Shown here one piece after another: positions 60 to 24,243 of a stretch of DNA of 64,000 nt (positions are counted from its first letter, which is position 1; every line of letters begins with the position of its first letter). Made by a program: the position numbers and the translations under genes. The notes below the pieces were generated by a model. That model was not told where the DNA came from. It was given only the letters and a program-made list of their open reading frames with translations, and searched no databases. This stretch comes from Liolophura sinensis (taxonomy: Eukaryota; Mollusca; Polyplacophora; Chitonida; Chitonidae), in contig NC_088297.1 in NCBI RefSeq assembly GCF_032854445.1, positions 26,963,915 through 27,027,914 of the forward strand, given 5' to 3'.

Positions 60-194
60 CTAGATACACGCCTCCCTTGTTCCTGATCTGCATGTATATA
101 ATCCCCAGAGTGAGGACGATGACTAAAAGTATGGCACCCACAAGTCCTAACCACCAGAGAGACATTCCGGCAGAGGCGGGCTCCCTGTGCAGAG
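60..194 (-). CDS. Gene A exon 11: transmembrane helix and juxtamembrane start
   Basis: 135 nt with acceptor TCATACAG (chosen for phase) and donor GTAAG. It encodes S-L-W-W-L-G-L-V-G-A-I-L-L-V-I-V-L, then G-I-I-Y-M-Q-I-R-N-K-G-G-V-Y-L. A single hydrophobic helix is followed by a basic residue cluster, so type I topology. R-N-K-G-G-x-Y is the L1-family juxtamembrane motif. The tail exons of this copy are left of the window. Confidence 0.8.
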
Positions 195-3100
195 CTGTAT
201 GACAGATCACGTGATGTATGTTTGTAGCAAATCATTTTCAATCTCACCCTATTCGTAAATGACTACCTTATCACGCATATTTATGTGGAATATTTTTCCG
301 TTGGATTCTCATGGTGAATAATGATGTCATGTCAGAAAGTTGCCTAATTTATAGGGACAGAAAACATAAAAATGAAGTAAGCATAAGTGGAATGCATGGC
401 TTTTAAAAACTATCGGATCCCATGTTTCAATGCATACTCCTCACAGTGAGGGGAATCACGAGAGTATCACTACCACTACTAGACAAGTTTGACCTTTTCA
501 CACACATGAGGTATCAGTCTCACCTGTAATGACCGCGCGTTGACTCATAATCAACATTTATCACTAAAAAGATTTCTGCACAAAATATTCTTATTAGTGG
601 TGGCGTCATGTTTAGCTAGACCAGAAATTTGTTTATCTCATCTGTATGCGCTGTGAGGAGTATGTATGCATGGCGGTTGGAGTTGCTACTGATCCACTTT
701 CTACTAGTTTTATTCTTGTGTGGACTTTCTGGTGATGGCACAATGGTACTCTCACCTTGAATTAAGAGCTCATGCGATTAAGAGTGCGAACAGATATATT
801 ATTTGACAGACAGCATTAGTGTATTGAGGTCAGCACGGGAAGTACAGAGGTGTTCAATCTAAGCTTATGGAAAATGACAGGACTGTAATAGTATCAGTAA
901 TACGCTATGAAACAGGGAATGACGCTGCCTCGACTTTTGTTGTGCATGGCGAAGTAACGGAGGCAGTGATGTCATAGTTAGCTCGCTGCCTCGCTGCCTC
1001 GACTTTTGTTGTGCATGGCGAAGTAACGGAGGCAGTGATGTCATAGTTAGCTCGCTGCCTCGCTGCCTCGACTTTTGTTGTGCATGCCGAAGTAACGGAG
1101 GCAGTGATGTCATAGTTATCTCGCTGCTTCGCTTCGCTATCTAGACATATGGTACTGAGTTTGCGAAATGTCCTGTGCCGGGTTCTACAATAGGGCAGTT
1201 TTTAATAATGAAGTCTACCAATATGACCTATAACGACAACTTACTATATCCAGCTTTCTTTGACGTCACAGTGAATTTGAGTCGCTTGGTTGCGTGGGGA
1301 ACGCCTACAGTCACTTCGCAGACGTACTCTCCCATGATGTTCGAAAACTCACTGGCTTTGAGGTTGCTCGTGTCGATAGTCAGGTGACTAAATCCGTCCT
1401 TTGGATAAACCTGGATCCCGGCGTCAAGGTTGGATGTCTTTAGCTCGGAGTTTGCGTGGTGCCAAATGTATTTCAGGTCATCTTTGTAATCTGGGTCAAC
1501 AGTGGCACTCACGTTGAGATGACCTTTCCCCCCAGGGACTATGTCCACGTGACTGTCTGATGCGTTGATTTGAATGGGCTCTGCATACAATAATAGTAAG
1601 GAGAACAGTGTTTCGAATAAATAAATGAATGCTTGGGGTTTAACGTCGTACCTAACAATTTGTCAGCCATATGACGACGAGGAGTTAGGTGCGTCTGTGT
1701 ATATACGCGTCTTCATATGGCAGGGCGAGTCCATGCCGCCAAAGTGCTGTTGCCACCGAAGTATCATGCCGAAGACGCAAGACAAGACACCCCACCCAGT
1801 GACATTATGCTGACACGGGACAACCAGTCCTGTTTCCTTCCTCTAACCGCTCTGTGCTGAGCGATTAACGAGGCACAAACAAGTACCGACCCAGGTTTGA
1901 TTCTGGGTCCCCGATTTCGAGGCTGACGATCTAACCATTAGGCTACCAGTGTTTCGAACAATTGCTCAAACCAGATGTCTGGTTAACCGAAGCCACTTGA
2001 TGGGTGTAAAAAAATTGTTACTTTACTTGGCAGATGGATGTTTGATTACTTATTATTCGCAAGTCACGTACTGATCCTACAAGATATGTAAAAAAGACGG
2101 TCACGTCTGAAAACATGACGTCAGTACCGTCGATCTCTCGGTAGATTTACACAAGATGGCTGCCTTTGACTTCAATTACGTTACAACAGATCATCTGGAG
2201 AACATTTTGATGACAGATGAGAGAGACAAGAACAAGACTAATATAGAGAGAGACCAAAACACTAAAATAGAACCGATTTTAGGTGAAAAGTTAAGCCTTG
2301 TGAATACAACCAACCGATATGTGACAAGCTGTGCGGCCATCAACAGTCAACTGGTACAAGACGTCCTGTCTAGTCCTCTTCTTTCAACTTTACAAGGCAA
2401 TTTCTGCAAGCATCTTCTTTCAGCTTTTAAAACACAATCTCTTCAAGCATCTTCTTTCAGCTTGTAAAAGACAACTTCTCCAAACATCTTCTTTCAACTT
2501 TTACAAGACAACTTCTAGAAGCATCGTTTTCAATTTTTACAAGACAACTTCCCCAAGCATCGTCTTTCAGCTTTTAAAAGGCGATCTCTCCAAACATCGT
2601 TTTTCAAATTTTACAAGACAACTTCTCCAAACATCGTCTTTCAGCTTTTAAAAGACGATCTCTCCAAACATCGTTTTTCAAATTTTACAACACAACTTCT
2701 CCAAACATCGTCTTTCAGCTTTTAAAAGACGATCTCTCCAAACATCTTCTTTCAACTTTTACAAGACAACTTCTCCAAACATCGTTTTTCAGAATTCTAC
2801 AAGACAACTTCTTCAAACATCGTCTTTCAGCTTTTTACAAGACAACTTCTCCAAACATCTTCTTTCAACTTTTACAAGACAACTTCTCCAAACATCGTTT
2901 TTCAAATTTTACAAGACAACTTCTCCAAACATCGTCTTTCAGCTTTTAAAAGACGATCTCTCCAAACATCTTCTTTCAACTTTTTACAAGACTTCTCCAA
3001 ACATCGTTTTTCAAATTCTACAAGACAACTTCTTCAAACATCGTCTTTCAACTTTTTACAAGACAACTTCCCCAAATATTTTCTTTCAACTTTTACAAGA

Positions 3101-6100
3101 CAACTTCTCCAAACATCTTCTTTCAACTTTTTACAAGACAACTTCTCCAAACATCGTTTTTCAAATTCTACAAGACAACTTCTCCAAACATCGTCTTTCA
3201 ACTTTTTCCAAGACAACTTCTCCAAATATCTTCTTTCAGCTTTTACAAGACAATTTCTCCAAACATCGTTTTTTCAAATTCTACAAGACAACTTCTCCAA
3301 ACATCTTCTTTCAACTTTTTACAAGACAACTTCTCCAAGCATCGTTTTCAATTTTTACAAGACAACTTCCCCAAGCATCGTCTTTCAGCGTTTAAAAGGC
3401 GATCTCTCCAAACATCGTTTTTCAAATTTACAAGACAACTTCTCTAAACATCGTCTTTCAGCTTTTAAGAGACGATCTCTCCAAACATCTTCTTTCAACT
3501 TTTACAAGACAACTTTTCCAAGCATCGTCTTCCAACTTTTACAAGACAACTTCTCCAAGCATCGTCTTCCAGCTTTTAAAAGACGATCTCTCCAAACATC
3601 GTATTTCAAATTTTACAAGACAACTTCTTCAAACATCGTCTTTCAACTTTTTACAATACAACTTCTCCAAACATCTTCTTTCAATTTTTACAAGACAACT
3701 TCCCCAAGCATCGTCTTTCAGCTTTTAAAAGGCGATCTCTCCAAACATAGTTTTTCAAATTGTACAAGACAACTTCTCTAAACATCGTTTTTCAGCTTTT
3801 AAAAGACGATCTCTCCAAACATCATTTTTCAAATTTTACAACACAACTTCTCCAAGCATCGTCTTTCAGCTTTTAAAAAACGATCTCTCCAAACATCTTC
3901 TTTCAACTTTTACAAGACAACTTCTCCAAACATCGTTTTTCAAATTCTACAAGACAACTTCTTCAAACATCGTCTTTCACCTTTTTACAAGAAAACTTCT
4001 CCAAATATCTTCTTTCAACTTTTACAAGACAACTTCTCCAAACATCGTCTTTCAGCTTTTAAAAGACGATCTCTCCAAACATCTTCTTTCAACTTTTTAC
4101 AAGACTTCTCCAAACATCGTTTTTCAAATTCTACAAGACAGCTTCTTCAAACATCGTCTTTTAACTTTTCACAAGACAACTTCTAAAAATATTTTCTTTC
4201 AACTTTTACAAGACAATTTCTCCAAACATCTTCTTTCAACTTTTTACAAGACAACTTCTCCAAACATCGTTTTTCAAATCCCACAAGACAACTTCTCCAA
4301 ACATCGTCTTTCAACTTTTTACAAGGCAACTTCTCCAATTATCTTCTTTCAGCTTTTAAAAGACAACTTCTCCAAACATCGTTTTTCAAATTCTACAAGG
4401 CAACTTCTTCAAACATTTTCTTTCAACTTTTTACAAGACAACTTCCCCAAGCATCGTCTTTCAGCTTTTACAAGACAACTTCTCCAAACATATTCTTTCA
4501 ACTTTTTACAAGACAACTTCTCCAAACATCGTTTTTCAAATCCCACAAGACAACTTCTCCAAACATCGTCTTTCAACTTTTTACAAGGCAACTTCTCCAA
4601 ATATCTTCTTTCAGCTTTTACAAGACAACTTCTCCAAACATCGTTTTTCAAATTCTACAAGACAACTTCTTCAAACATCTTCTTTCAACTTTTTACAAGA
4701 CAACTTCCCCAAGCATCGTCTTTCAGCTTTTAAAAGGCGATCTCTCCAAACATCGTTTTTCAAATTTTACAAGACAACTTCTCTAAACATCGTCTTTCAG
4801 CTTTTAAGAGACGATCTCTCCAAACATCTTCTTTCAACTTTTTACAAGACAACTTCTCCAAATATCTTCTTTCAACTTTTACAAGACAACTTCTCCAAGC
4901 ATCGTCTTTCCACTTTAAAAAAAACTTCTCCTAACATCTTTCAACCTATCAGGACAATTAGTACAAGACAGTTACCCGTAGATGTTCAGCCAACTTGTTC
5001 AAGAGAACTTTTTCGTAGGCTTACAGAACAACTTCTTCCAAACATTCCAGACAACTAAATCAAGAAACAAGGAAACCGGACAAAGGCCCATGAATATCAA
5101 TGGCCGTCCGCAGGTTGCTGCAAGACCTTCCCACATACGTCCGGAGAGGAGGCCAGCAAGAGGAAGACTATGTAAAACTGTGCTGGCTGTGTCTTAGTAG
5201 ATATTTACTGGGTTATACAGATGACGCTTGTTACTTGACTCTCACTCACCAATCACCGTTAAGGTGGCGTCGCTGACATGCGTCCTATTGTCTTTTGTCA
5301 CGTGACACTGTATACTGAAGGTGTCTCTTGGTTTCTGGACGTTATTCACAACTAGTGTGTCCCTGTACTCGTAGATTCTTTTGTCCTCTGTAAAAAGAAA
5401 GTACAGGTAGAAAGCAATGTAATATATAGAAGATATTGCACAGTGATGGTTGAAAATCCTAAATATTTTTCGTCTGAGAGGTGAAAATAATAACCCACGA
5501 GACACGAAGCGTCGATTGGGTTATCACTTCCACCTTTCACAAGACAAATATTTTTGATGTTCAACATCCACTGTGCAACATTCTATTTATTATTTATATT
5601 TTGACAATATGTAGGCCTTCACAGACTTGTGTATATAACGTGACGTCGCACATGGCGTCTTGTTTGACATCGTGTCTTATTGCGTGACGTAAGAAAAGCT
5701 CAAATCGACTGAACTTGTGTTATGGCGTCATTAAGGTAAGCACGAATTGGAACGTCATAAAACACAATGTTTCTTTGTGACCTCAGGGCGTCTGGGTGTG
5801 TAATAACAAAAGTGATATCTAACTATAGCTAGTGAGATATCACTTTTATCACTGAAGGACATTCTGACATTTCACCTATATATAAATAATAAATGATGCT
5901 AACTCACGTAACTCACCATGCATATTCTGAATATGGGTTATTTTTCCTGTCAAAAATAATGTTTTTATTCAAATAAGCACAACTGAAAAACGTTTCCACC
6001 AAAGGAAGACCAGCTCACTTTTTGTACAAACCTACTGCTATATGTATGCTGCAGCATTAAATTAACATTGGGCATCTGGATGCTGCTTCACTTAGCACTC

Positions 6101-9100
6101 CATCAATGCCAACTTAAGTAGGCGAATCACAAGCTCGTGCTACTTCAGTTTTACTTAATACTGGTGCCAGCATTCACGTCATAACAACGACGATTATCAG
6201 ATTCCGTGTCGAGTTTAACATCAACCTCGAACATGTGAGGATCTCACACGTGATAACGTCATCACGTATTCTCTTGGGAAATGGTCAAATTCTTGCTCAA
6301 ACATGATATCAAATAGTGAACACCAGCATATGGCATGAACTCGACACAATGTCTGGTTAACCTCCCATCGAATCGCATCGGAGTATTGGCCCTTGTATTG
6401 TCCAACCCATTCAGCACCACCTCATCAGCTAGTTTTACACAAAATTAAATTGGCCTACACAGATAAATTTAAGCGATTGTACAAAGGTCTTACATGTACA
6501 ATCTAGACCAGTGACGTCTTATTAATTGCAACTGACATCAATTGACTTCAATGCATTTTATTTATTTATTTGATTGGTGTTTTGCGCCTTATTAAAAAAT
6601 ATTTTACTTATGCGACGGCGGTCAGGATTATAGTGGGTGGAAACCGGGCAGAGCCCGGGGGAAACCCACGACCATCCGCAGGTTGCTCAAAGCATTTTAA
6701 ATTGGATACCGTTTAGGCATTTACATGAATAGTAAGAGTAAAATTCTGATGAAAACTGACAAGACACGAAATTTCACCAGTATCATGCCAATCATCATAC
6801 TGTCATCTCTTCTCAGATTTTCGGTTTCCTCCCACTATAATGCTGGCCGTAGTCGTATATCTAAAGTATTCTAGAGTACTGTGTAAAACACCAGTCAAAT
6901 AAATAAATAAATAAATTCTCTGATTTTACTCTCTATCCTGCAAATCTTTTATTATATTACATAGCAATAAATTTACGATCCTCACCTCCAACGGGTTTGT
7001 TATTAATGAACCATGCAATGTCGGCATCAGCCTCGTTCACAGCACACTGGAACTCCTGAGTGCTCCCCTCCGGCAGTACCATCATCATTGGATAGATATG
7101 TGAAATCAGCTCCTCTAAAAAATCAGAGATAATGCTACATCCGTTATATCATACTACATTTACAGTGCATGCGCCGCTCTATCTACGCTCACTTTACATC
7201 ACTGCCATCACAAGACAAGCTTGACCTTTGGAGCATGTGAGGCATACAAAGGCTTGTTTACGATACGCGGCACTATTTAATCAGCATTGAGCAAAAAAAA
7301 AGTTGTTTCAGGTGTTGATTAGAATCATGATGTCCATACTGAGAATAGAGTAGAGTGTTGTGGGAAACATTCATTGTTATGGTTACAGCCTTACTTGTTC
7401 CTACAAGATTCAACCATACAATGAGTTTCTTATAGAAATGTCCACAATTCGGTAGTCCTGTATGGTCGAGCTTTCTGACCACGAGGCTGAGATCGTGTAT
7501 TTGAATCCAGTTCTTATTTACTGGATTGCAGCCTTACGTCAGTAGAATTGTCTGGTACTGAGCTAAGGGTGGTGCTTGTGGTAGTTCTCTGCCTGGTGTT
7601 CTGCGCCAACGTGAACCCGACCAGCGACATGCAGTTGAAATATATAAATATAAGTATTTTCTGGGGCCTCCGTGGCCTAGTTGTTGGCGTGCTAGTGCAA
7701 CACAATGGCAAGGGGCCTCTCAGTACTGCGACGGCTGTGAGTTCAAGTCCATCTCATGGTTTCTCAGCAACCTACAGATGGTCGTGGGTTTCCCCAACCA
7801 TAATGCTGTTTGCCGTCGTCGTATAAGTGAAATTGTCTTGAGTACAGAGTGAAACACCAATCAAATAAATAAGTAAATAGTTTGTTTGGGTGTCGATCTG
7901 AGCTCTGTTTCATTATTCCCAGCTTGTTCAGACCCATACTCTTCCATTCAATAACCTGGAATTCGGTCTTTTCGAGTAGTATTTCAAACAAAAGTTGTAT
8001 GTCAAACAAAAACATATTTCCTTCAGTCAATCCTACGGTGGTTCTGACTTCATAACCAGGAACAGTATAGACTGTAAATTCACAATTGTATACAAACCTA
8101 CGAGACGGTCGCACTCGCAATCGTCCGGAAAAAGATTCTTTAGGGGGCTTACTGATTTTTGCTATTATAATTAAGAGAACGAAATATAAGCAACTGTTGT
8201 GAAAAAAGATGATCTTAGTTCTCTGAAGAGCAGTCGAATCAAGTGATTTGAAAATGGCGGTTTGTGAAGTTCGGCTGTGCCTGAGTGAAGTTTTGGTTGT
8301 ACTGCTACAGCATATCACGTGGCGGAACCTTTTTTGTCGCGTACATTGAGGACTGCGCAGGCAAAATGGTCATTCTCCAGGTTTGTCTGAGTAACGATCC
8401 AGAGCGGTCGATTTGGAGGTAAGCTGGGAACATGGCAAACCGATTTCAGAGCTAGTTTGGATGGAGCATCTGGACAGAGCGTTTTCGTGAGTCAGGACTA
8501 TCAATAGGGGGAGTTTCGAGTTGGAACTCTTTTGTCGTCAAAGGTAAAAACAGTCCCACTGTGTCATGTGGCTTGTAAAAAATATTAGGCATTATTTGTT
8601 GACATTAATTTTCCGTTCACCTGTCTCGCCCCTTTCTCGAGGCACAAATGACACGTCTTTCCTTTAGTAACTTCACATACGGTCAGATTCTCATTTTTCT
8701 CCACCATTGTTCTACTCTAAATTACTTTTTCTGACACTTTTTTCAGACGCCCATGTTATGGTGAATATTATCAGAAATTACGCTAAGCCTTCAGAACACA
8801 AAACCCTTATATGGACATAGGAGAGGCACACTACACTTACCAGTGACGGTCACCTGAATCGTCTGCTTGACCTCACCCCCGGAATTCTTCGCCTTACAGG
8901 CGTATATTCCCTCGTCAGTTTTTTTGACCTTCCGCACTGACAATGAGTACAGCGACCTGTCCACCTTATGTCTGTTACTGAGGCTGCCACCAGGGGGAAT
9001 CCACGTCACTTCCGGTTGAGGGCTATGAACGTAGTAAAGATTTTTTCACGGGTACTGGCCGGATTGTTATCACGAATAGATTTGTTTGATGGATTTTAGT

Positions 9101-12100
9101 GATTTGTTGACGCTTAATACTATAATGCCCAGTTAAGCCCACTTAAGCATGCATCACAGAGGCTTTATTACCATTCTACAGTTAAAAGTTTACTGTGCTA
9201 TGTCTTTTCACTAATTTACCCCCAAATATTTTCACGCTGAGCATTGCAGTTAACTTGAAAAAAGTCGTCAAAATCAGTGCCAGCATACATTGAATTGACA
9301 GGAAGTGATGTCCCTTTACCTCTGCATGAGATTTCTGTGCATTCGAGACCACGCGCCTTTCTACGTAAACAAGACTCGTGTATATATGGGCGCCATCAGC
9401 GTGGTGATTTCCCTCGAAAATTTGGGGATAATGATTGATGGGCTAGTAACAGATATTTAATAAATGTTTTCAGATTCATTGAGTCTAAATCTGTACCGGG
9501 GCCTCCGTGGCTCAGTTGATACGGGGGCAGTAGATACATTTGTATTTTAGAATGGTTTCTATGAGGCAACAATAAACACGGAACTGAGGGCGTCATACTA
9601 CTAGTTGGCTGTCTCCTGCCCAAACTCCGGTATTCACACTGACTGCAGAAACCGGTCAAAAAAGAAAAGTAATACCGTGTCTTAACTGCGGAATGTATTG
9701 TACTTACAGGCCATCCGCAATGCACTGAAGCTCTAGCCAGTCCCCGGCATTAAGTGTAGCGCTTTCAGTGTAATACACAAGACTTGGCGAACGCGGCTGT
9801 GGCTTTTCGCCTGGAAACACAAATGGCATTTCATTTTTCTGTCATGAATATCACCAAGGTATAGCTACATATTGAGCAATCAACATTTTACGGTTTTCTA
9901 TTGGTTAGAGCGTGTCAGTTTATTTGTCACACGGATAGTAAAGGTGTTTTGAAACCTTGATAAGCCATATCCACAAAAAAAGGGATATGTTATTCATGAT
10001 TTTGGTAGCGTATAACAAAGACCTTAACAGTTATTATTCTTCTCTGGATGTAATCCGTCAATGTCACTAATCAAATCAGAAAATTTATTAAATCCTGTCG
10101 TGTGAAAAAAACTACGTTGATGTCAAGAAATTTGCAGGTGTAAACAACCAGCCCTTGAATACTTGAAAGTCATAGGAAACACTAAAATGAAGTATGTATA
10201 GATGAACGACCATCAACAACTGCCCAGGAAACTAGCTGGATTTATGTGTTCTTTTTTTAGAATTTGTTTAACCTAGTAAAGTGCATTTGAATATTCTATT
10301 CTGACGTCACGTAAGGATTTTTACTACATAACACACATTACACTGCTACCTCTCATCATTCAAAATGCATATACATATAGATCTGTGAATACATTCGCCG
10401 ATTTGACCTTGGAACGGATTATATCAGGTAAAACTTATAAATGTATAAACGTAAATGACACCTTTTGGGTCACAACAGATCTTTCAACACAATTTTACAC
10501 TCTTAGAAAGATCATAAGAAAAAATAAATCCAACTATTTTCCTGGACTGTTTTTAATGTTCTTTTATCTGATATATACTTCGTTTTAAAGTGGCCATTGC
10601 GTTGAAAGCGACAATCTTGTTGACTGATTGATTGATTGATTTATAGATGAAGTAAGGGGATACCTGATTTCACTGTCAGCTTAGTAGGGCTGCCGTACAC
10701 TCGGGCTCGACTCTCAGCGTTAAACACGGAGCAGTTGTACATGGCGTTGTCCTTCGCCGAGTCATTCACAGTGAGCGGTAAAAAGTGAAGATTACCTGTC
10801 AACAGGAGATGTCAAGTCAGGTGATTGCTTACCTTTAATTGCATTTTCGCAATTGGTTACTTTATATATTGGAATTTGTATGCATTTACGCAGAGAAATT
10901 TTTGCATCGATTTCATTATTGCCTTTTTTTAACATAACGTGTAGATTATTTCAAACTATTGAATAGATGAACATAAATTCATGTAAATGTGTTGCGCTAT
11001 TTTGAACATTCGGTACGGCAGGTGTTTAAACGTTTATAACCCATGACTTGATGGCACCAAAATTGGCGTCAGAAAACAAAAACGCATTTTGAGACTTAAT
11101 TTCTTTACTAAGAAATGCATCTGTGTGTGGTGTCTAGATCCAAAGTGTACAAAGAGTGACCAGTAGTGGTAAGGCAAATACCATGGAAAACTTGTATACT
11201 GCTTCCAAGCAGTCTGTACACACGATTTTTATTGTCTGCTTCAGAATAAATTTGTTCCATACCCTCTTCACGGCAAACCATTCGAATCTATGCATTCTAT
11301 GCTCTGTCGATACCAGGTATTCTGATACGAGAGAAAATTAACGAAATCCGTGCAAGTCTATGAGCTCTTCGTTCCAGCAGAAACAAGTCATCTGTATAGC
11401 TTGTTTCTTTCAGAAACAGGCTTTTTTGGTTGGAAACAAAAACAAGACTGCATGTTCCCAAGGTTGGCATTTTCTAAAAGAATATAAGTTAGTTATTAGA
11501 GGGGAAATATGGAAAATTCAGTTTGAACTGCATAAAATGTGACTAAATGTCTGTACCCCGTCTCTATATCCGTCATTGTGGGACAGTTACAAATGAGCGA
11601 TCAAGTTTGAATGTCGCGCTGTTTTGTCCACTTAGCACCATTTTGCTGTTGATTTTGCCATTTCTCTGAACTCAAACATTGTGTGTAATTTCAGTGTGGT
11701 AAGATACAGGCGAAGTTTTGAAAAGCAATCTGTTTATCAGTCTATGTTAAATTGCTTTTGTTTCTCTTGCTAAAAAGCAGTTGAGCATTCAGTGTAAAAT
11801 AACCTGATAATTGTAATTGTATTCCATTTCATCTCAGTTTTGGTAGCGTTATGGACAGAAATTCTTCTGATAGAACTCATTATGCAAGCTATTCTTTTTT
11901 TTTTTTTTTTTTTTTTGATTGGTGTTTTACGCCGTACTCAAGAATATTTCACTTACACGACGGCGGCCAGCATTATGGTGGGTGGAAACCGGGCAGAGCC
12001 CCGGGGAAACCCACGACCATCCGCAGGTTGCTGTCAGACCTTCCCACGTACTGCCGGAGAGGAAGGCAGCATGAGCTGGTCTTGAACTCACAGCGACCGC

Positions 12101-15100
12101 ATTGGTGAGAGGCTTCTGGGTCATTACGCTGCGCTAGCGCGCTAACCGACTGAGCCACGGAGGCCCCGGCAAGCTATTCAGATGACTTGTTCGTGTATAA
12201 GAACATGTGTGACGCGTGTTTCGCATTTATTTATTTAATGCTTGTTAAACAGGCGCTTTGGAGTTTACGTACACGCTTAAGTACACTACCAGAACTTAGC
12301 GTCCGTTTAGGTCTAAACGGTGTGATGTGAGAGGTAAGCACTACTGTTTAGGAATTACACGGCATTGGTGCCGACTGGCGTTTAGTCACTAAGCACTGCT
12401 TTCTCCACACTTATTTAGGTTTTAAGCCATCATTTTTAATGTCAACTGGTTTTTAAAAGCCTCATTTGTGTTTGAAAGTCATGTCGGGTGTGGAGGGTGG
12501 GTGGGTGGATGTGGAGGGGGGATAGGTTGGTGTGGAGTGGGGGGGGGGGGGGAGTGACTGCCATGTAGAACCTATACGATCTTTTTTTCTGTGCAGCCCA
12601 CGGGATTTGGTGATGTATTGTGTAAGAAGTTAGCAGTTTTGATGGATACTTTTCTTACAAAACGACAAAAGGCAGTTTCCAGAGAAGAAAAAAAGTGGTA
12701 ACAAATAAAATACGCTTTCAGCTTGGAAGCTTAATTATGTGTATCTTGTAGCAAAACGTCGGTTTCTATAGATCGATGTCGAGCTGTTGTTGTGGGTAAA
12801 TTATACCCAGGGAGTTGCTTTCGCTATCCCATTACCTCGCTATGGTGAGGCCTCGCTGCCTTGAGGTAGCAAAGTGATGTAACAAGGATATGCTACTCGC
12901 TGTCCTTTTACCTCGCTCCGGTGAGGCCTCGCTGCCCCGAGGTAACAAAGCGATATGAAAAGCATATGCTATCTCGCCGTGCCATTACCCAGCTACAATG
13001 AGGCCTCGCTGCCTCGAGGTAGGAACCGATGTAACAAGGAAATGCTATCTCGCTGCCCCATTATCTCGTCACAGTGAGGCTTTGCTGCCTCGAGGTAGTC
13101 ACGCGATGGAACGAAGATATGCTATCTCGCTGTTCCATTACCTCGCTCTGGTGAGGCCTCGCTATCTCGAGGTAGCCAAGCGATGTAATAAGGAAATGCT
13201 ATCTCGCTGTCCATTACCTCGCTGTGGTGTGGCCTCGCTGTCTCGCCGCATCACAGCCACATATATGAACAGTTGCAATCAAAGCGCATCTGAGATACAT
13301 ATTTTATTGTCGACAAGTTATATAATATCATAGTACACGATTTGAGTACTGATTTCACTCATTCGCCAAGACAATACCTTGCATCTTTCCAAATTTCCAA
13401 CTGTTCACTGTTTTTCTTTGAATGATTCCGCCTTATCTTCATACTTTAGATACTTTCTTAGTTATTTGGTAATTCATGTTAAACTTCTTCCCAAGAATTT
13501 GTCTTGCGATTATTCACCTGGAACGTCCAGCTTGGTTGACGGCTGGTATACGAATATCTGTTTCGACGCATAGATTAACTACCTCGACATTAGTTGATTT
13601 CACAAATCTTGTCATACCCTTATTGTGTAGTTCTACAACCAGAACTCACCTAACTGGTCCACGGTAATTCGCCGGCTATGCGGAATTTCACTCTTACCAA
13701 GGTACCAGTTAAAGTCCTTGAGGGCAGGACGTGGCTTGCTGTCAGGTCGACTACGGCAGGGAAGGGAATGATTCTTACCGGCGTGCCCCGTCACATTCTC
13801 CGGCATTTCCGTCGGAAATCTGAACAAGTCTGATGAAAGAAGCCTATTGTTTAAAGTCAGAACTTATTGAAGGGGTCAAAGTAACAATCTCACTATGTAA
13901 CTTTAGTGACGGCGTCTTCTGTCAGACTTCCCTCGATCTCACATTTCGTGAGGTCACGGTGTTACATGTACATGTGCATAAAAATACACGAATAATTTTA
14001 TAGACATGTCAGGAATAGGCATTAGACATGACATGAGTTGGTAATAAACGTGTGAGGAATTGACAATAAACATGTCAGGAATTGGCATTAGACATGTCAG
14101 GAATCGGAAACAGATATGACAGGAAAGGGCATTCGACATGTCAAAAATTGTCAATAAACATGTCAGGAATTGGTATTAGACAATATAGGAATTGGCAACA
14201 AACGTGTCAGCAATTGGCAACAGACGTGTCAGGAATTGGCAACAGACGTGTCAGGAATTGGCAACACATTAGGGCTTGGCATTGGACATGACAGGAATTG
14301 GTAACACACGTCAGGAATTGACATTAGACATGTCGGGAATTGGCCATAGACGTGACAAGAATTTTAAAATAGACATGTCAGGAATTGGCAATAGGCATGA
14401 CAGGAATTGGCATTAGACATGACAGGAGTTGGCATTAGACATTTCGGGAATTAGCATTAGACATGTCAGGAATTGGCAATAGACATCTGCGAAATTGGCA
14501 ATGGACATGTCAGGAATTGACATAGACATGTGAGGAATTGGCATTAGATGACAAAAATTGGCAATAGACATGTCAGAAATAGACATAGACGTGTCAGGAA
14601 TTGGCAGTAGACATGTCAGAAATTGGCCTTAGACATGACAGGAGTTGGCGTTAGACATGTCAGAAATTGGGTTTAGGCATATCAGGAATTGGCATTAGGC
14701 ATGTCAGGAACGACATTAGACATGTGAGGAATACTAAATAATAAAGCAAAATCGACCCTATAGCCTATCAGAACACATTGGGTGAGATTTCATTGGTTAA
14801 CTTATATATTTCATCAGTGGCTTAGGTCATACATGTGTACAATTGACATATTCCTTCAAGTCTTGTGGGATAAGGAATTAAGTAGCTCACATCATCGTAC
14901 AGAGCACAGCCCAGATCTAATATGCGAAGTGTGATGACAGTGACATCATTTTTATGTAGTTCATATTATCGTATGGAACACAGCCTAGTCTAAAAATGTG
15001 ACATGTGATGACGTCAGCAACGGAATAGAGTGACATCTTTCATTAACGCAATATATTAGCTACATCGTTGTGAGAAAAAGTCAGGAGTCCCATGCGGATA

Positions 15101-18100
15101 TTATAAGATTTAATAAATATACATCTGACTCCAATAAATGTGACAAATCTAGGCATTTCACCAAATGTGTGGTAAAGCTCTATACTGGACAATGTGAATC
15201 TTACCTGACTTAGTCAGAGTTTTCGCGGAAGATCGGGAAACTCCGTAAGTGTTAGTAGCCACACAATAGTACGTTCCTTCATCCGCCACCGTGACCCTTG
15301 TGATGTTGATATGCCCCTGTTTTAACGCGATCCTTTCAGTAATGTTCAGAACTTTGCCATCTTTTACCCAGGTGATACTGTAAATAAAGAATCTTTATTA
15401 CGGAGAAAAGGGCATTGGGGAGATAGGACAGCTAGAAAGAAGTGGTTTATTTATGTCTGCATTACGTGGTTATACATATTAAGAAGAAATCATTTAAGAT
15501 CTCTCGACATTTCTGCGACTCTCAAAGACTGATATCATGTGTTTTACATTTTGTTGCCTAGAAAATATGTGCCATTGTCGTGACACAACGTAAATACCGT
15601 ATGCTTTAACAGGTAAAAGCAGTTCACGCCACAAAACCTAATCTCACGTTACGTCTTAGTGGCTGTCGAGTAAAGGCCCGTGTAAACTGAGTGTTTTGTT
15701 GTGACTCGACCCGACACAACTGAAAAATCGCATTGAGTTGCTGACAAATGTTCTGATGTATACCTCTCCACGACGAAAATCGAGTCCAGTTGGCTGCAGC
15801 CGTGTCTAGATTTATATAAAAAAAAAACATCAGACCCAGTCGAGAGTCTTTTATAGCGTATCCACTCCTACTATCGTCAGTGACTGTCTTCAACCTTCAG
15901 CCAATCAGAACTGGGCGCATAGTCACGCGACCACATTTTGGTATCCAAAATGGCGGTGCCCAAGGAGGCAAATCTTGAACCCAATTCCACGAATTGCGCT
16001 GGTGTAACCTGAAGGTGACATAATCACAATGATTTAAAGAAAACTTTGTAATGTTAACACCTAACATATTGAACGAAGCACAGTTGAAACCACCGAGTTC
16101 CAGGTAAGTGGATGTAACGATTCAGATCGGCATAAATAAAGGACTGAGGAAGAGAATCTAAGATGACATGACCAGCCACCGTCGGAACTAACAATTTACT
16201 CGCATTGGCGTCGGAAGTAGCACGTCCGGTACGGTCATGGCCTTACCACTTTCCATCACACAAAAGAAAAAACCATGCGCACATTAGACCGTTAATCACG
16301 TAAAACTACAATGGATCTATGTAAAGAATAAAAACCACGTAAAACAATTTCAGGGCATCTCCAGCCGTCTAGCATCCCATATTTTCGGGATCTAAGCGGC
16401 CCTGTACAATTGCCTTTCGCACTAGGACAGTTGACAGGTGCCGTGCCACCACACTGACCTGACCATGTACACGGTGTTTTTTTTTCAGCCCATTTTAAAC
16501 CTGACCTCTGACGTATTCTTGAAATGTTCACCCTGAACTAGGCGCACACTCATGCGGCCACTTTTTGGTATCCAAAATGGCGGCGCCCAAGGAGTAGACG
16601 ACAAGCTCATCGAGCTTTGGAGTGATGAGCCTTGTGAAAAAGCCCCTGCTGTTCACGCAACAGTAGACAAGACTTTACCCATCAACTCCTGAAAGTTACA
16701 ACTTCCTCTTTTAAAGCCTTTGTTGTGACTGGATCTACCGGTCCCGAAGCGGACGATCTAGCAACTGTGTCATTGTTGCGAGTACATGTGGGTGATCTTA
16801 CATTTCCTTCACAGTCTTACCTTGGAAGTGGATATCCCGTCACAACACATTCAGCTGCGATATAATCGTTAAAAAAGTCCTGGCTAGTCAGCGACGACAC
16901 AGACGGTGGGCGTGGTTCTGGAGAGAAGATAAATGCATTTACTGGAGGGGGACGAGTCACGTGGTACACACTTGCAGATCGAGATGTAAAGGGGGAGATG
17001 TAAACTTGGGATGCTAGGAATATCACACAACAGAGTTTAACATCAGTCCATTCAACAATCTGATTTTTACAATGAACAATAAACAATGAACCAAGTAGAC
17101 GACAAACAATTACATAGGCAGCAACCTCAGCCTTACAACTCTCTATCATTTCCCTTCGAAGCCGAGTTTGGATTGACGTCGATATTTTGTTATATGCCTA
17201 CAGATTGGGTTTTATTCGTAGGTGGCGTCTCCTACTCCAATACCTAATACCTCCTCTCCGGCCGCACGTGCGAAGGTCTGCAGGTAAACTGCGGATGGTC
17301 GAGGGTTTCCCCAGGGCTCTGCCCGACTCCCCCCACCATAATGCTGACCGCCGTTGAAATATTCTTCAGCACGGCGTAAAAAAATTCCGATCAAATAAAT
17401 CAATCAAACAGTCTCGAAAGACAACAGGCCCGTAGACGCGAGGTCCCTTGTTCGAATCCAGCTAGCTCTGCTCCCAGAGGTAGGTCATTTTCTAGTTCTG
17501 AAATCGCTTTCATTCTTCCCAGATCAGCTTTTAGAATTATACCTCTGTGTATTGTTATACATTCAGTAACCTGGAACTTAGCCCTGTCGCCTGCGCTGTA
17601 CGTGTGAAAACACGCCACAAAACTGGTTTCCTTTGATATTGAAGCAAGTCTGAATTCTAATCACCTCATTGTCCGTGAACAGTAAAGACTGTGCCCTCAC
17701 CATAAACACACGTATTTGAAAGTGTCCACTGAGACAGCATCCGAACTCGACTCCTTTGCAAAGCTTTCGGATATGAATGTTACAAGAACGCATTGATTTT
17801 TCTCACTATTCATGTAGTAAATTAGTGAACCTAAACCTAATGTATGCCTCCTAGCTTTCCACTAGTACAAAGCCATATCACCACATGAACCTTGCACTTT
17901 TTTCTACAACATATCCAAAACTAAACCTAGCATGACCACCGTTGGAAGTAAAGTCATAGCATTTTGTTACCTTGGTAACCTCCAGGGGAGTAAGAAGTAA
18001 CATAGGCAAAACGGTTTTTAGTCGTATCCTAAAAAGAGACAAAATTCTCATATATTTTAACTAGGTGCAAACTAACAGGGCAGAAATGTATAGTGCATCA

Positions 18101-20967
18101 ATAACCTAAAATGTCCGTGAGGCAGTATCACCCAATCAGTGCTCCTTCACTCTTTCACAATTCCACGAAAGATTCCAGGTGTACCTAAAGGTGACATAAT
18201 GTCACAATGACTTGAAGTAAACCGTGTTTTTTTTTTTTTGTTTTTTTTTGTTTGTTTGTTTGTTTGTTGTGTTTTTTTTTTGCGATGTTCACACTTCACA
18301 TGTTGAGCACAACACCGAGTTCCAGGTAAGTGAATGCAACGATTCAGATCGGCATGAATAAGGAACTGAGGAAGAGAATTAAGGATGACATGATCAGCCA
18401 TCCTCGGAACTAACCATTTACCTGCGGTGCAGTCAGAAGCAGCACAGACGGTACGACCATGGCCGTACTACCTTTCATCACTCAAAAAAACGTAAAGAAG
18501 AAAAATTAAGATAAGAAATCAAAAGTAAAGTCGAACAAATTTACTGGCGACCAACAAAATGAAGGCTCATGTGCACACCTGTGCACACTAGACCTTTAAT
18601 CACATAGAACAACAATGGATTTATGTGAAGAACAGAAACCCCGTTAACAATTTCATCTCCAGCCGTCTAGGACTCCAAAGCTGTCGGGGTCTAAGCGCCC
18701 CTGCACAACCGCCTTTCGCACTAGGACAGTTTACCGGTGGCCCTACCACTAAATTGACCCGACTTGACTATACACGCTGTTTTTTCGACCCATTTCAAAC
18801 CTGACCTCTGACGTACACTTGAAATATGCGCCCAGAAGGGCGTAAAACACTAATTCTAACAGCTGATTCTGTAACCTAAAAAGCATTGGACAGACTAGAT
18901 TTGAGATCGGTTTAAACGTCCGTATCTGTCTTCTACACTCACGATCTAAATGTACACTAAATAATTTGTTAAATTGCCGACTGAGTCACTTTCACCCACA
19001 TCATTCTTTACTCAAATAATTCGAAGTGGTTTGATTTAATTTTGCTCACCATTCAGTTTTATTTTGAATACAAAATTAAAAACATATATCAAAGGAGAAA
19101 AAATGTTAAAAACATGCAAATTTCACATGAAAACGTGTGAAAAGTTAATCGTAAATATGGTCTTAAATATTTTTGTCATTTGAAAATAATTTTTGTGTGG
19201 TTGATATTTGCTACCACCATTTGGCGTCTATGGTTTGTTATGATGTGATGCATGTATGTGTAATAAATTTATCTGAATGAAAATCTGCTGTTTATATCTA
19301 AACATATCCGTTAAATCTGAATTAAGACAATAATTAGATATATATTACAAATATAAATATGAGTAAACGGCTGAATTAAAACTTGTCAGAAGGAAACCCA
19401 AATGTATTTATTGGACATGAGCCATATCCTTTTTTATGACTTTCTTGTGCAAAGAAGATATATACCAAGGAATGACCCTAAATACCCACGATACAAAATT
19501 ATTTTCAAATGTCCATTTCTCCTAAAAGAAAAAAAGTATTCAGTCTTGATCATGTTTACAAATAACTTTTCACATTCTTTCGTTTGATTTATTTCTTTAT
19601 TTATTTGATTCGTGTTTTGCGTCGTGGTTAGGAATATTTCACTTGTACGACGGCGGACGGCATTGTGATGGGAGGAGACCGGACAGAGCCCGGGAGAAAA
19701 CCCATGACTATCCGCAAGTTGTTCGGAGACCTTCCCACGCACGACTGAAACTCACATCGACCGCATTGGTGAGAGGTTCATGGTTTACTGCGCCCTGCTG
19801 GCTTCCTAACCAACTCGGCCTCGGAGGGCCCTTTTCGTTTCTTTATTTGACTTTTATGTTTTCTCCAGAGCTAAAGAAAGATTGGATTATTTGAGATTAA
19901 CCTAAAAGCAAATACACTGTACAATACGTTCGCAGCTTGTATCTTTCCTATTTTGACGACTTAATAACTGTAGCCGACGCAGTTTTCTGAGAAACGCAAT
20001 GAACGAATGACTAATGAAATGGGTGACGAAGAGATAGTGACTAGGTAATCAGATCACCTATTATCTCATTATGCATATACTCCGCGTCATTTCACTTCCG
20101 GTTCAGGTTGCCCCAGTTTCTCCGTGACCACATATGGAATTATTTCACAGATACTGAACTTAGAGTTTTCTAAATTGTACTCCACGCTGTGGTTTACTAG
20201 TGTAGTTCCCATTTGTAGTCAGAGAGCAGAGGGTAAGACAAAAGTGCATTTGACACTGTGGTTTACTAGTGTAGTTCCCATTTGTAGTCAGAGAGCAGAG
20301 GGTAAGACAAAAGTGCATTTGACACTGTGGTTTACTAGTGTAGTTCCCATTTGTAGTCAGACAGCAGAGGGTAAGACAAAAGTGCATTTGACACTATGGT
20401 TTACTAGTGTAGTCCCCATGTGTTGTCACAAAGTACTTGGTAACACAGAAGTGTATTTGACGCTGTACTTTACCAGTATAGGCTATGTTTATAGTCACAA
20501 AGTACAGGGTAAATTAGAAGTGTACTTGACGCTGTGGCGTTCTTGTGTAATTCCTATTTGCACTGATAAAGTACGCAGCTACATGTATATAAGCATAATA
20601 TATATGCGTATGCGTATGCGTATGTATTCTTTACTGTATGTATTTCCTGATGATAGCACAAACATAATGACCGAATTATAGAAAAATATTATGACTTTAA
20701 TATTCGGAGTTACTTCCTTTCTGATTTATAAAACCACAAGTTAAGACTGTATGATTTTGGTCTGACAGCTCCGTGGTCCTGGCACCAGGGCGACCTATGT
20801 TGTATTTAATTGAGTGCTAAGGGCTACTTAACACTAAGCATGCTTCATAAAACTAACCCCATGACTTATACAACACGGTATAAACCATAAGTGTACTTAC
20901 TTAACGCTGTACTTATGCTGAAGACTGACAGCGCACAAAACACAACACAGACGGGGTTCCATGCCAT
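60..20967 (-). CDS. Gene A: L1CAM/neuroglian-like short Ig receptor (11 coding exons, C-terminus off left edge)
   Basis: Spliced minus-strand gene rebuilt from GT/AG sites and matching phases: 20967-20901, 16917-16821, 15377-15205, 13829-13650, 10795-10664, 9810-9708, 9022-8841, 7114-6986, 5387-5250, 1580-1245, 194-60. This gives about 557 residues: signal peptide, four two-exon Ig domains, a fifth Ig-like domain in one exon, and a transmembrane helix with basic stop-transfer. All Ig domain borders are phase 1, as is usual for extracellular Ig modules. Ig1-Ig4 read colinearly like L1CAM-family Ig1-Ig4: Ig3 has L-Q-C-I-A-D-G-x-P-x-P-x-V-T-W, and Ig4 has W-F-I-N-N-K-P-V. The fifth resembles L1 Ig6. 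Juxtamembrane R-N-K-G-G-V-Y-L matches the L1-family intracellular start. L1 proteins are adhesion receptors with six Ig and usually five FnIII domains; here FnIII and Ig5 are absent. Expected role is cell-surface adhesion or recognition. Family assignment is from memory of the family pattern, not a search. Confidence 0.8.
924..1133. repeat. CTGCCTCG minisatellite, copy A (3 units)
   Basis: Units of roughly 58-73 bp with GCTGCCTCGACTTTTGTTGT and GTAACGGAGGCAGTGATGTC, separated by CTCGCTGCCTC spacers. Minus-strand open frames across it are repeat artefacts. Confidence 0.9.
1245..1580 (-). CDS. Gene A exon 10: fifth Ig-like domain (L1 Ig6-like), single exon
   Basis: 336 nt, acceptor TGTATGCAG, donor GTAAGTT. 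A whole domain in one exon: H-L-N-V-S-A-T-V-D-P, L-K-Y-I-W-H-H, H-L-T-I-D-T, then G-E-Y-V-C-E-V-T-V. The first Ig cysteine is replaced by Val (L-N-V), so the canonical disulfide is missing in both copies. The pattern x-D-P before the Trp strand resembles Ig6 of L1/neurofascin. Seven residues differ from copy B. Confidence 0.78.
1612..1955 (-). mobile_element. tRNA-headed SINE, family 2 (copy A)
   Basis: On the minus strand it starts with a tRNA-like head (GGTAGCCTAATGGTTAGATC and a B-box-like GGTTTGATTC relative) and ends ...TACGACGTTAAACCCCAAGC then ATTCATTTATT. Full-length. Contains the +62-codon open frame, which is not a gene. Confidence 0.65.
2156..2340 (+). pseudogene. Possible Crypton/tyrosine-recombinase N-terminal fragment (copy A)
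   Basis: ATG in good context (ACAAGATGG) opens M-A-A-F-D-F-N-Y-V-T-T-D-H-L-E-N-I-L then D-E-R-D-K-N-K-T-N-I-E-R-D. This style (acidic start, V-T-x-x-D-L-x-x-I-L, then D-x-x-N-T-K) resembles the N-terminus of Crypton-type recombinases and their domesticated relatives. The frame runs into the 37-bp minisatellite at about 2378 and no catalytic domain follows. It sits in the Ig4-Ig6 intron on the opposite strand. Inference only. Confidence 0.3.
2378..4950. repeat. 37-bp minisatellite, copy A
   Basis: About 2.5 kb of units like TTTCAACTTTTACAAGACAA + CTTCTCCAAACATCGTC, with 36-38 bp variants and an alternative AAAAGACGATCTC half-unit. It fills most of the Ig4-Ig6 intron, where L1-family genes would carry Ig5. 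All open frames in it, on both strands, are repeat artefacts. Confidence 0.9.
5250..5387 (-). CDS. Gene A exon 9: Ig4, second half
   Basis: 138 nt with acceptor TTTTTACAG and donor GTGAG. It encodes T-L-V-V-N-N-V-Q-K-P-R-D-T-F-S-I-Q-C. The usual Tyr two before Cys is replaced (S-I-Q-C), as in L1-family Ig4. It has N-R-T and ends A-T-L-T-V-I. Copy B differs by two Tyr losses (to N and S). Confidence 0.8.
5808..5847. repeat. 13-bp perfect inverted repeat (copy A)
   Basis: AAAAGTGATATCT and AGATATCACTTTT separated by 14 bp. Conserved in copy B at 55212-55251. In the Ig4 intron, followed by nothing recognisable. Confidence 0.8.
6557..6695 (-). mobile_element. SINE family 1, 3' fragment
   Basis: TTATTTGATTGGTGTTTTGC tail-first and CGGGCAGAGCCCGGGGGAAA core; head missing. 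Paired head-to-head with the plus fragment at 6822-6916. Confidence 0.8.
6822..6916 (+). mobile_element. SINE family 1, 3' fragment
   Basis: CGGTTTCCTCCCACTATAAT ... GTAAAACACCAGTCAAATAA tail. Confidence 0.8.
6986..7114 (-). CDS. Gene A exon 8: Ig4, first half
   Basis: 129 nt with acceptor GATTTTTTAG and donor GTGAG. It encodes L-P-E-G-S-T-Q-E-F-Q-C (first Cys) and I-A-W-F-I-N-N-K-P-V-G, matching the W-x-I-N-G-x-P-V pattern of L1-family Ig4. Copy B differs at Y/D, A/V and N/D. Confidence 0.8.
7663..7879 (+). mobile_element. SINE family 1, nearly full length (copy A)
   Basis: Head GGGGCCTCCGTGGCCTAGTT (tRNA-like A box region), then GTGAGTTCAAGTCC (B box), then tail AAACACCAATCAAATAAATA. Confidence 0.85.
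7880..8318 (-). other. Unrecognised open region in Ig3-Ig4 intron (copy A)
   Basis: An open frame of 184 codons starts at 8318; its last part is SINE. The unique part contains F-T-V-Y-T-V-P-G-Y-E-V-R-T-T and E-K-T-E-F-Q-V-I-E-W. The DNA at 7905-8090 is a diverged relative of 17490-17730 (shared TAACCTGGAA, TTTCCTT and GAACAGTA-AGACTG blocks), where the frame is broken. It may be an old repeat or a dead exon. No function assigned. Confidence 0.25.
8841..9022 (-). CDS. Gene A exon 7: Ig3, second half
   Basis: 182 nt with acceptor TTCATAG and donor GTAAGTG. It encodes V-T-W-I-P-P-G-G-S and K-K-T-D-E-G-I-Y-A-C-K-A-K-N-S-G, a textbook I-set second half. It is identical at every base to the copy B exon, unlike its neighbours. 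Confidence 0.87.
9708..9810 (-). CDS. Gene A exon 6: Ig3, first half
   Basis: 103 nt with acceptor TTTCCAG and donor GTAAGTA. It encodes G-E-K-P-Q-P-R-S-P then L-E-L-Q-C-I-A-D-G, closely like L1-family Ig3 (L-x-C-I-A-x-G-x-P). Phase 2 donor joins the exon at 9022 to give D-G-L-P-Q-P-E-V-T-W. Copy B differs at four residues. Confidence 0.82.
10664..10795 (-). CDS. Gene A exon 5: Ig2, second half
   Basis: 132 nt. It encodes N-L-H-F-L-P-L-T-V then D-N-A-M-Y-N-C (variant of D-x-G-x-Y-x-C) and a strand ending K-L-T-V-K-S. G-N-L-H-F-L is the L1-family Ig2 pattern (G-N-L-Y-F). Copy B differs only by M to T next to the Tyr-Cys motif. Confidence 0.82.
11895..12168 (-). mobile_element. SINE family 1, full length with target duplication (copy A)
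   Basis: A 23-base T run marks the tail; core and tRNA-like head (GCGCTAGCGCGCTAACCGAC, TGAGCCACGGAGGCCCC) are complete. Flanked by the 11-bp duplication GCAAGCTATTC at 11884-11894 and 12169-12179. Confidence 0.92.
12480..12560 (+). repeat. G-rich purine tract (copy A)
   Basis: GGTGTGGAGGGGGG ... a G run of 14 before GAGTGACTG; several G3+ runs close together could form a quadruplex. Copy B equivalent at 61945-62025 differs in run lengths. Confidence 0.6.
12825..13245. repeat. About 75-bp CTCGCT minisatellite (copy A)
   Basis: Six units, each with ATTACCTCGCT, GTGAGGCCTCGCTGCC, TCGAGGTAG and ATGCTATCTCGCT. Open frames here are artefacts. Confidence 0.88.
13650..13829 (-). CDS. Gene A exon 4: Ig2, first half
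   Basis: 180 nt. The acceptor TTTCATCAG is chosen over a nearer CAG because it keeps the phase, giving D-L-F-R-F-P-T-E-M-P. It contains H-S-L-P-C-R (first Cys) and F-N-W-Y-L-G (Trp), resembling L1-family Ig2. It ends in V-D-Q-L with donor GTGAG. It differs from copy B at four residues (N/E, T/M, H/Y, K/E). Confidence 0.8.
14000..14735. repeat. 21-22-bp GACATGTCAGGAATTGGCAT minisatellite (copy A)
   Basis: About 34 imperfect units alternating CATT/CAAT/CAACA spacers. GACATGTC is palindromic within each unit. Confidence 0.9.
15205..15377 (-). CDS. Gene A exon 3: Ig1, second half
   Basis: 173 nt, donor GTAAG. It starts with I-T-W-V-K-D-G-K (C-strand Trp) and contains V-A-D-E-G-T-Y-Y-C-V-A-T-N (canonical D-x-G-x-Y-x-C) followed by a G strand ending T-L-T-K-S. 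With exon 2 it makes one complete I-set Ig domain. Two N-x-T glycosylation sequons are present (N-I-T twice). Confidence 0.85.
15909..16594. repeat. Repeat element between 59-bp direct repeats
   Basis: 15909-15967 and 16536-16594 are near-identical direct repeats (AACTGGGCGCA ... GGTATCCAAAATGGCGGYGC). The 550-bp interior (15982-16530) recurs at 18158-18832 without those repeats. Confidence 0.7.
16821..16917 (-). CDS. Gene A exon 2: Ig1, first half
   Basis: Acceptor CTCTCCAG, donor GTAAG, 97 nt. It encodes P-R-P-P-S-V-S-S-L then A-E-C-V-V-T-G-Y-P-L-P, the B strand with the first Ig cysteine and the G-x-P-x-P turn. The split codon AG|T gives Ser at the junction with exon 3. Copy B of this exon would lie beyond the right edge. 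Confidence 0.8.
17253..17408 (+). mobile_element. SINE family 1, 5'-truncated
   Basis: CTCCGGCCGCACGTGCGAAG ... CGGCGTAAAAAAATTCCGAT + CAAATAAATC tail. Confidence 0.8.
17490..17760 (-). other. Diverged relative of the 7.9-kb region
   Basis: Contains A-K-F-Q-V-T-E-C and L-G-R-M-K where 7.9 kb has T-E-F-Q-V-I-E-W and L-G-I-M-K, but only across frame changes. Lies in gene A intron 1, on the same strand as the related region. Confidence 0.25.
18158..18832. repeat. Second copy of the 16-kb interspersed repeat
   Basis: Begins CAATTCCACGAAAGATTCC and ends CTGACCTCTGACGTACACTT, colinear with 15982-16530 (shared CACTAGGACAGTT, AAGGTGACATAAT). Contains a T/G-rich insertion at 18227-18285. Confidence 0.7.
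19583..19831 (-). mobile_element. SINE family 1, diverged
   Basis: TTTATTTGATTCGTGTTTTG, GACGGCGGACGGCATTGTGA, CCGGACAGAGCCCGGGAG and a decayed head. Confidence 0.8.
20165..20580. repeat. 69-bp tandem repeat, six units
   Basis: GTGGTTTACTAGTGTAGTTC recurs every 69 bp, with later units diverged. Because 69 is a multiple of 3 it keeps a 185-codon plus frame open (23-residue repeats). It lies in gene A intron 1; no signal or family points to a real protein. Confidence 0.85.
20901..20967 (-). CDS. Gene A coding exon 1: signal peptide
   Basis: ATG at 20967-20965 follows an A-rich leader (ACTAACA just before ATGG). It encodes 22 residues, M-A-W-N-P then a hydrophobic core (VCVVFCALSVF) and S-I-S-T-A-L, a typical cleavable signal peptide. 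It ends in a strong donor GTAAGTAC, phase 1. The split codon joins in frame with the acceptor at 16917 to give K-P-R-P-P. A TTTGCTGCAG acceptor lies 17 bases upstream of the ATG, so the 5' leader is probably spliced. Confidence 0.75.
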
Positions 20968-24118: not shown

Positions 24119-24131
24119 AGGATTTCTAATG

Positions 24132-24243
24132 AGTGACCCGAAGATGTCAAATTTATTAAGCGAGAGTAGTAGTTTTCAGTTTTCATTTTCATTTTCAATG
24201 AAAACTACTACTCGAGTGTGTTAAATTTGATATCGAGGGTCAC
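24132..24243. mobile_element. Fold-back MITE
   Basis: Arms GTGACCCGAAGATGTCAAAT ... GAGTAGTAGTTTTC and their imperfect reverse complement GAAAACTACTACTCGAG ... ATATCGAGGGTCAC enclose a short TTTTCATTTTCATTTTC loop. Abuts the microsatellite. Confidence 0.75.

Follow-up and report, generated by a model that had tools for sequence, protein, structure and literature searches.

A gene on the minus strand of the window (the whole stretch of 64,000 nucleotides that was analyzed, C3:26963915-27027914 of the 609-Mb Liolophura sinensis genome) has a well-supported descent from a neuroglian/L1-type gene through loss of the exons for Ig5 and for the FnIII domains. On balance, this gene, here termed gene A, probably encodes a short L1-derived receptor that holds an Ig1-Ig4 head near the membrane and that operates without coupling to ankyrin. 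The sections below present the structure of the gene, its relationship to the neuroglian gene of the same genome, its relatives on the same contig, and hypotheses regarding its biologic role.

Exon structure of gene A

The full model of gene A has twelve exons, of which exon 12 is outside the window. The other eleven extend from 20967 (the ATG) to 60 (the final donor inside the window) and are joined in frame. All 11 exons have GT donors and exons 2-11 have AG acceptors, with compatible phases, and splicing yields an open frame of 557 codons uninterrupted by a stop. The initial annotation had proposed that spliced exons provide a signal peptide, Ig1-Ig4, an Ig6-type domain and a transmembrane segment, and this arrangement is borne out. 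The encoded order is signal peptide, Ig1, Ig2, Ig3, Ig4, Ig6-type domain, transmembrane segment and L1-type juxtamembrane exon.

Exon 1 (20901-20967; GT donor, phase 1 out) contributes the start codon and signal peptide. Each of the first four Ig domains is encoded by two exons, all on the minus strand. The halves of Ig1 are in exon 2 (16821-16917; phase 1 in, 2 out) and exon 3 (15205-15377), with the split phase of neuroglian Ig1. Those of Ig2 are in exon 4 (13650-13829), taken from the spliced model, and exon 5 (10664-10795), and the split between G and NLHF is identical to that of neuroglian. Ig3 is divided between exon 6 (9708-9810; spliced model) and exon 7 (8841-9022; spliced model and comparison of phases with neuroglian), and Ig4 between exon 8 (6986-7114) and exon 9 (5250-5387), both from the spliced model. 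Exon 10 (1245-1580) encodes the whole Ig6-type domain, without its first disulfide cysteine, as determined from the model and a comparison with neuroglian. Exon 11 (60-194; spliced model) encodes the transmembrane segment, which was called by reading a hydrophobic stretch, together with the first portion of the L1-type juxtamembrane part.

The locus is rich in repeats. A repeat search revealed a 37-bp minisatellite of approximately 69 copies at 2380-4938, in the intron where Ig5 would be expected. Different minisatellites are present in gene A introns and in the upstream flank (window 923-1133, 12821-13245, 14001-14732, 20187-20481 and 23437-23994). Long open frames on both strands overlie a short-period repeat array at 23279-24224, and are likely a by-product of the repeat. 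Also, a dispersed repeat recurs in the locus at 11911-12165, 6540-6700 and 19570-19830, where similar wording was recognized by reading; it may resemble repeats in mollusc genomes.

Relationship to neuroglian

A Pfam profile search on the spliced protein, which had been suggested as a check, placed Ig domains well above the cut-off: the I-set model scored 160.3 bits (cut-off 23.7), with three stretches, not five, passing individually. The closest solved structures to gene A are neurofascin (1.6e-34) and contactin-5 (2.5e-34), and by Ig sequence alone gene A is equally near to contactins and neurofascin. For F2, a paralog described below, neurofascin (2.8e-45) is ahead of contactin-2 (1.8e-38).

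The same genome carries a canonical neuroglian gene at C7:45.366-45.384 Mb. Ig4 and Ig5 occupy two exons each and Ig6 one; the gene also has a transmembrane segment and a juxtamembrane exon, its last exon contains FIGQY, and its FnIII pieces, when grouped by eye, make up five domains. Intron phases of neuroglian were read by eye, and those that were readable were compared. They are equal to the phases of gene A where Ig1, Ig2 and Ig3 are each divided, after the first Ig4 exon, and around Ig6, the transmembrane segment and the juxtamembrane exon. In neuroglian, the Ig5 pair is bounded on both sides by phase 1, and phase 1 is also found where the Ig6 exon ends and where the transmembrane exon begins. 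Because both the Ig5 pair and the FnIII block are thus flanked by phase 1, whole cassettes are removable with the frame kept. Given a neuroglian gene on C7 with matching readable intron phases, we conclude that gene A is L1-derived and that the Ig5 and FnIII cassettes are missing from it. Near the canonical neuroglian, further FnIII, Ig4-like and Ig6-like matches occur at C7:45397784, C7:45422740 and C7:45601473, and may belong to additional L1-like genes.

Ig2 and the second halves, not the first, of Ig1 and Ig3 were read in neuroglian as well, and individual Ig domains were compared with those of neuroglian. Gene A Ig1 scores 16.8 with the neuroglian Ig1 half and 16.7 with Ig5; Ig2 scores 8.7 with Ig2 and 7.9 with Ig6; Ig3 scores 12.1 with the Ig3 half and 13.0 with Ig5; and Ig4 scores 5.6 with Ig4 and 4.2 with Ig6. 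The Ig1-Ig4 domains of gene A are in L1 order in the sense that positional partners are best or near-best, with ties. For F2, the Ig2 scores are 9.8 with Ig2 and 9.1 with Ig5, and Ig1 and Ig4 are unambiguous.

The last Ig domain of gene A is most similar to neuroglian Ig6 (z 4.9, versus -0.4 for Ig5), as is that of F2 (7.3, versus 0.8 for Ig5), and is a single exon in gene A and neuroglian alike. Its first disulfide cysteine is missing in all five aligned sequences of the short family and is present in neuroglian. When neuroglian Ig6 is used as the query in the reverse direction, exon 10 ranks fifth in A and third in F2 among locus open frames, and the Ig3 and Ig1 exons of gene A rank above it. 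The initial description of the last domain as Ig6-like is therefore favored by the z score and the single exon and is opposed by the reverse ranking; Ig6 appears to be the best option for a name, with moderate support that falls short of proof. Since the N-terminal Ig scores tie and the reverse ranking is as described, the L1 ancestry that was originally proposed, which our data uphold, rests mainly on intron phases, the transmembrane segment, the juxtamembrane exon and the FIGEY-type tails of paralogs.

Searches for Ig5 and FnIII exons

Exon 10 and the transmembrane exon are 1,050 bp apart and are joined in frame, and no profile signal was detected between them (best E 0.17 for Ig and 2.0 for FnIII). 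These data agree with the initial annotation, which had placed the two exons approximately 1 kb apart with no room for FnIII domains. At E <= 0.05, an FnIII profile that was built from C7 neuroglian gave 9 matches in its own neuroglian locus, and the A, B, F1 and F2 loci yielded none. Similarly, a genome-wide search with Pfam fn3 gave 148 matches, none of them on contig C3 among the 150 of 443 candidates that were scored. The absence of FnIII domains is thus corroborated. We rejected the idea that FnIII exons are hidden in introns, because the loci contain no FnIII profile signal, and also rejected assembly gaps as a cause, given that neither the 30 kb adjoining the window on its left nor the 104-kb joined stretch contains any N.

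For Ig5, the introns between Ig4 and the Ig6-type exon were searched in A (1581-5249; 3,669 bp), F1 (1,444 bp) and F2 (919 bp), and no Ig, FnIII or Ig5 signal was found (best E 0.47). The Ig profile is insensitive, in that it recovered only two of the Ig exons of A, of B and of F2, and three of those of F1. In a control with single pieces of neuroglian Ig domains, six of the seven pieces in F2, but only three of the seven in A, placed the positional exon first. Neither Ig5 piece of neuroglian found anything in the F2 intron (best E 24 and 5.4) or in the gene A intron, where the test is weak (best E 6.3). Judged from these searches, the proposed loss of Ig5 is well supported in F2; in A, the layout points to it more weakly, and a much diverged exon may be missed.

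The initial annotation had also described the intron at the place of Ig5 as mostly minisatellite, and indeed the 37-bp repeat occupies 70% of it. However, Ig5 is absent from the short introns of F1 and F2 as well, so the minisatellite is not required for loss of Ig5, and we rejected it as the cause.

Juxtamembrane exon and ankyrin motif

Gene A had been thought to end at the transmembrane exon. This view is corrected by exon 12 (window -2875 to -2794, minus strand), which was assigned by tblastn and phases and is separated from the left edge of the window by 2.8 kb. Exon 11 closes at a phase 1 donor, and exon 12, which is entered in phase 1 and left in phase 2, encodes the L1-type juxtamembrane segment VDKRERQAGHDPVKELAEENKMQELNR. 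This exon was detected by tblastn with the juxtamembrane pieces of two paralogs (5.6e-8). A juxtamembrane profile matched A at 3.4e-18, with A's own row included in the profile, and B at 2.5e-17. Exon 12 is present in copies B and C, and was not found in copy D by tblastn with the paralog juxtamembrane pieces or by the exon search. Unspliced read-through of exon 12 in gene A leads to a stop after one further residue. A poly-A-like signal is located 404 bp past the exon, and was not counted as evidence.

The Pfam Bravo_FIGEY model has three matches genome-wide, namely, C7 (neuroglian), C3:22.952 Mb and C3:22.918 Mb, and this search gave no match near A or B. With a profile of the FIGEY last exon, nothing below E 2.7 was found in minus-strand open frames of the 30 kb left of A's transmembrane exon, or on the minus strand of the 28 kb left of B's transmembrane exon. 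The latter stretch extends to the start of gene A and therefore covers B's 3' territory in the window. A scan of acceptors and open frames, limited to acceptors with at least 12 pyrimidines in 18 positions, produced no convincing candidate for the last exon of A or B. Among the paralogs, the tail of F2 contains SFIGNY, and that of F1 the degenerate SFFVKY. In A and B, by contrast, no FIGQY-type ankyrin motif is recognizable. The original argument for loss of this motif depended on the edge of the window, with exon 12 outside it, and the motif could not be judged for A from the window itself; with the flank included, no FIGQY-type exon was found for A or B.

Related genes on contig C3

Gene A is a member of a recently duplicated gene family. 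Its tandem copy, B, is approximately 49 kb away on the same contig, and the similarity of the two extends through both their exons and their introns. Copy B is complete, with all twelve exons, including exon 1, and no stop. Its juxtamembrane tail of the L1 type is encoded by exon 12 (46125-46206), which was identified by tblastn and the exon search. The exon search also located exon 11, the transmembrane exon (49090-49224), exon 10, the Ig6-type domain (51193-51528), and exons 9 (54654-54791), 8 (56390-56518), 7 (58248-58429), 6 (59130-59232), 5 (60084-60215) and 4 (63080-63259), all on the minus strand. Exons 3, 2 and 1 are right of the window, with exon 1 at C3:27038730-27038796.

Two further copies, C and D, are present at 23.03 Mb of contig C3. 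In comparisons of the A, B, C and D stretches, which were restricted to matches no shorter than 600 or 800 bp, C is 95-99% identical to A over the longest blocks outside the minisatellite. Exon 9 of C has a one-base deletion relative to A. For copy D, exons 1-3 and 12 were not found, exon 4 has a two-base insertion, and the stretch contains 200 N. F1 and F2 are divergent paralogs with the same layout of five Ig domains, transmembrane segment and juxtamembrane part, and they have kept the last exon. In F1, exon 7 does not stay in frame; in F2, a stop occurs where exon 3 joins exon 4 unless the splice uses an upstream acceptor.

The contig also carries an array of four successive blocks of Ig exons (C3:22822336-22868995, loci L018-L022), spaced 11.5-12.6 kb apart. 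At the two junctions that were read, the last Ig exon is approximately 0.33 kb from the first exon of the next block. No transmembrane match was found between blocks by a search that also missed the transmembrane segment of gene A, so that a diverged one could escape it. The Ig6-type exon of the last block is disrupted, and there is no tail match in the 10 kb beyond this block. The array could encode one very long receptor or supply alternative ectodomain blocks, or it could be a relic.

Sequence change between copies

The aligned introns of A and B cover 16,545 bases, of which 246 (1.49%) differ, a rate that excludes tandem repeats and poorly aligned stretches and that may be lowered thereby. 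At this rate, 19.8 nonsynonymous changes are expected in A-B exons and 34 are found (P 0.002, excess), whereas synonymous changes number 6, versus 5.8 expected. Without exon 1, nonsynonymous changes number 32, versus 19.2 expected (P 0.005). A simple test of the replacement share in exons 2-12 (32 of 38 changes, against a share of 0.76 that is our own figure) is not significant (P 0.34). The A-B pair was examined first, and the remaining pairs were added later. Between A and C, 17 nonsynonymous changes are found versus 12.7 expected (P 0.15); dN approximately equals dS for B-C; and dN/dS is 0.27-0.42 for A-D, B-D and C-D. These pairwise substitution counts exclude exon 9 of C, exons 1-4 and 12 of D, and codons split by introns. 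For A versus F2, dS is saturated and gives no dN/dS value, and the F1-F2 and A-F1 ectodomains were left out because exon 7 of F1 is out of frame. Protein change that is faster than that of introns was thus observed in one pair only, A-B.

Insertions and deletions were also counted. The 1,754 exon bp of A-B have none, versus 3.1 expected (P 0.046), and A-C has one (in exon 9), versus 2.9 expected. A and B thus seem to have preserved their reading frame.

Alternative explanations

The layout of gene A is unusual, and one might suppose instead that it is an ordinary L1/neuroglian with FnIII exons that are elsewhere or are missing from the assembly. We regard this as highly improbable, because the last Ig and transmembrane exons join in frame across 1,050 bp, the adjoining 30 kb on the left and the joined stretch of 104 kb are free of N, the layout recurs in F1 and F2, and a full neuroglian sits on C7. 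A different concern is that C and D at 23.03 Mb are misplaced alternative haplotypes, which would make the family smaller than it appears. The 95-99% identity of C to A over the longest blocks outside the minisatellite and the 200 N in the D stretch are consistent with this possibility, which we nevertheless doubt; in any case, A and B, which are in tandem in one contig, are unaffected by it.

The state of the other copies raises the question of decay. Since C, D and F1 have disabling or missing parts and F2, with its stop, is doubtful, A and B may be young relics, that is, young duplicates under relaxed constraint that are becoming pseudogenes and have no receptor function of their own. That A-B replacements are not below neutral (34 nonsynonymous, 6 synonymous) and that the tail profile did not find a last exon in A or B would also be expected of such relics. 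However, all twelve exons are free of stops in both A and B, no indel is present in exons where 3.1 are expected, and dN is below dS in the D comparisons, so we consider decay rather unlikely. The excess of A-B replacements over the intron rate, with silent changes that match that rate, could also reflect a diversifying locus of tandem, fast-changing receptors that discriminate self or pathogens, and the tandem copies and Ig-block array on one contig are in keeping with such a locus. Yet the excess is confined to A-B (for A-C, P 0.15), dN is below dS in the D comparisons, and the simple A-B test gave P 0.34; we view this explanation as less likely than not. The short L1-derived receptor remains our preferred interpretation.

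Possible biologic roles

Under the preferred interpretation, whole in-frame Ig5 and FnIII cassettes would have been dropped from a neuroglian/L1-type ancestor. The four N-terminal Ig domains would constitute the L1-family adhesion head. In neurofascin and other members of the family, according to a published study (PMC9239158), these four domains form a horseshoe dimer that is needed for adhesion. In place of a long stalk, one short Ig domain would carry the head near the cell, and contacts would be close because only this single domain lies under the head. The head might bind an identical molecule or a different surface protein. Because A and B show no recognizable ankyrin-binding motif, a contact would be passed on without ankyrin, with the signal relayed through the juxtamembrane tail. 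The juxtamembrane part that is retained in gene A is what we take to be the ezrin site. As far as can be predicted from sequence, the most likely role would be short-range recognition between cells or of non-self. The initial suggestion of a lineage-specific recognition receptor would fit the tandem copies in the one species examined.

Several known systems resemble gene A in part. It shares with the L1 family (neuroglian, L1CAM and neurofascin) the Ig1-Ig4 domains, intron phases, the transmembrane segment, the juxtamembrane exon and, less firmly, the Ig6-type domain, but no Ig5 or FnIII domain was detected in it, and A and B have no recognizable FIGQY exon. Because these three L1 features were tested and not found, we classify gene A as an L1 variant, not as a canonical member. 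Contactins, which are GPI-anchored and have FnIII domains, are about as similar to Ig1-Ig3 of gene A as is neurofascin; unlike them, gene A lacks FnIII domains and has an L1 transmembrane segment followed by an L1-type juxtamembrane exon. Hemolin, with four Ig domains and no membrane anchor, is likewise free of FnIII and has L1-like Ig domains (structure 1bih matches gene A at 1.7e-18), whereas gene A adds a fifth Ig domain, a transmembrane segment and a tail. In open-licence PMC literature, titles and the openings of abstracts disclosed no L1 receptor that is free of FnIII. A published paper (PMC11999971) assigns five C2-type Ig domains to the molluscan defence molecule (MDM) of Lymnaea stagnalis. 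Gene A also has five Ig domains, a likeness in domain count, and by this analogy MDM may be the most suggestive relative of gene A.

A broader scenario, which we offer tentatively and consider less probable than the receptor itself, is that a neuronal adhesion molecule, reduced to its binding head, gave rise to a tandemly expanding, diversifying multigene family of short recognition receptors. The F type would have an ankyrin-type tail, A and B would have been freed from ankyrin, and the five-Ig array would serve as raw material. Our findings imply that in-frame loss of whole cassettes can turn a nerve adhesion gene of the L1 type into short FnIII-free receptors beside an intact neuroglian. 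Hemolin and the five-Ig molluscan defence molecule may have been recruited by the same route. If the short receptors are expressed on immune or epithelial cells, they would provide a direct test of how neural adhesion molecules come to be recruited for recognition.
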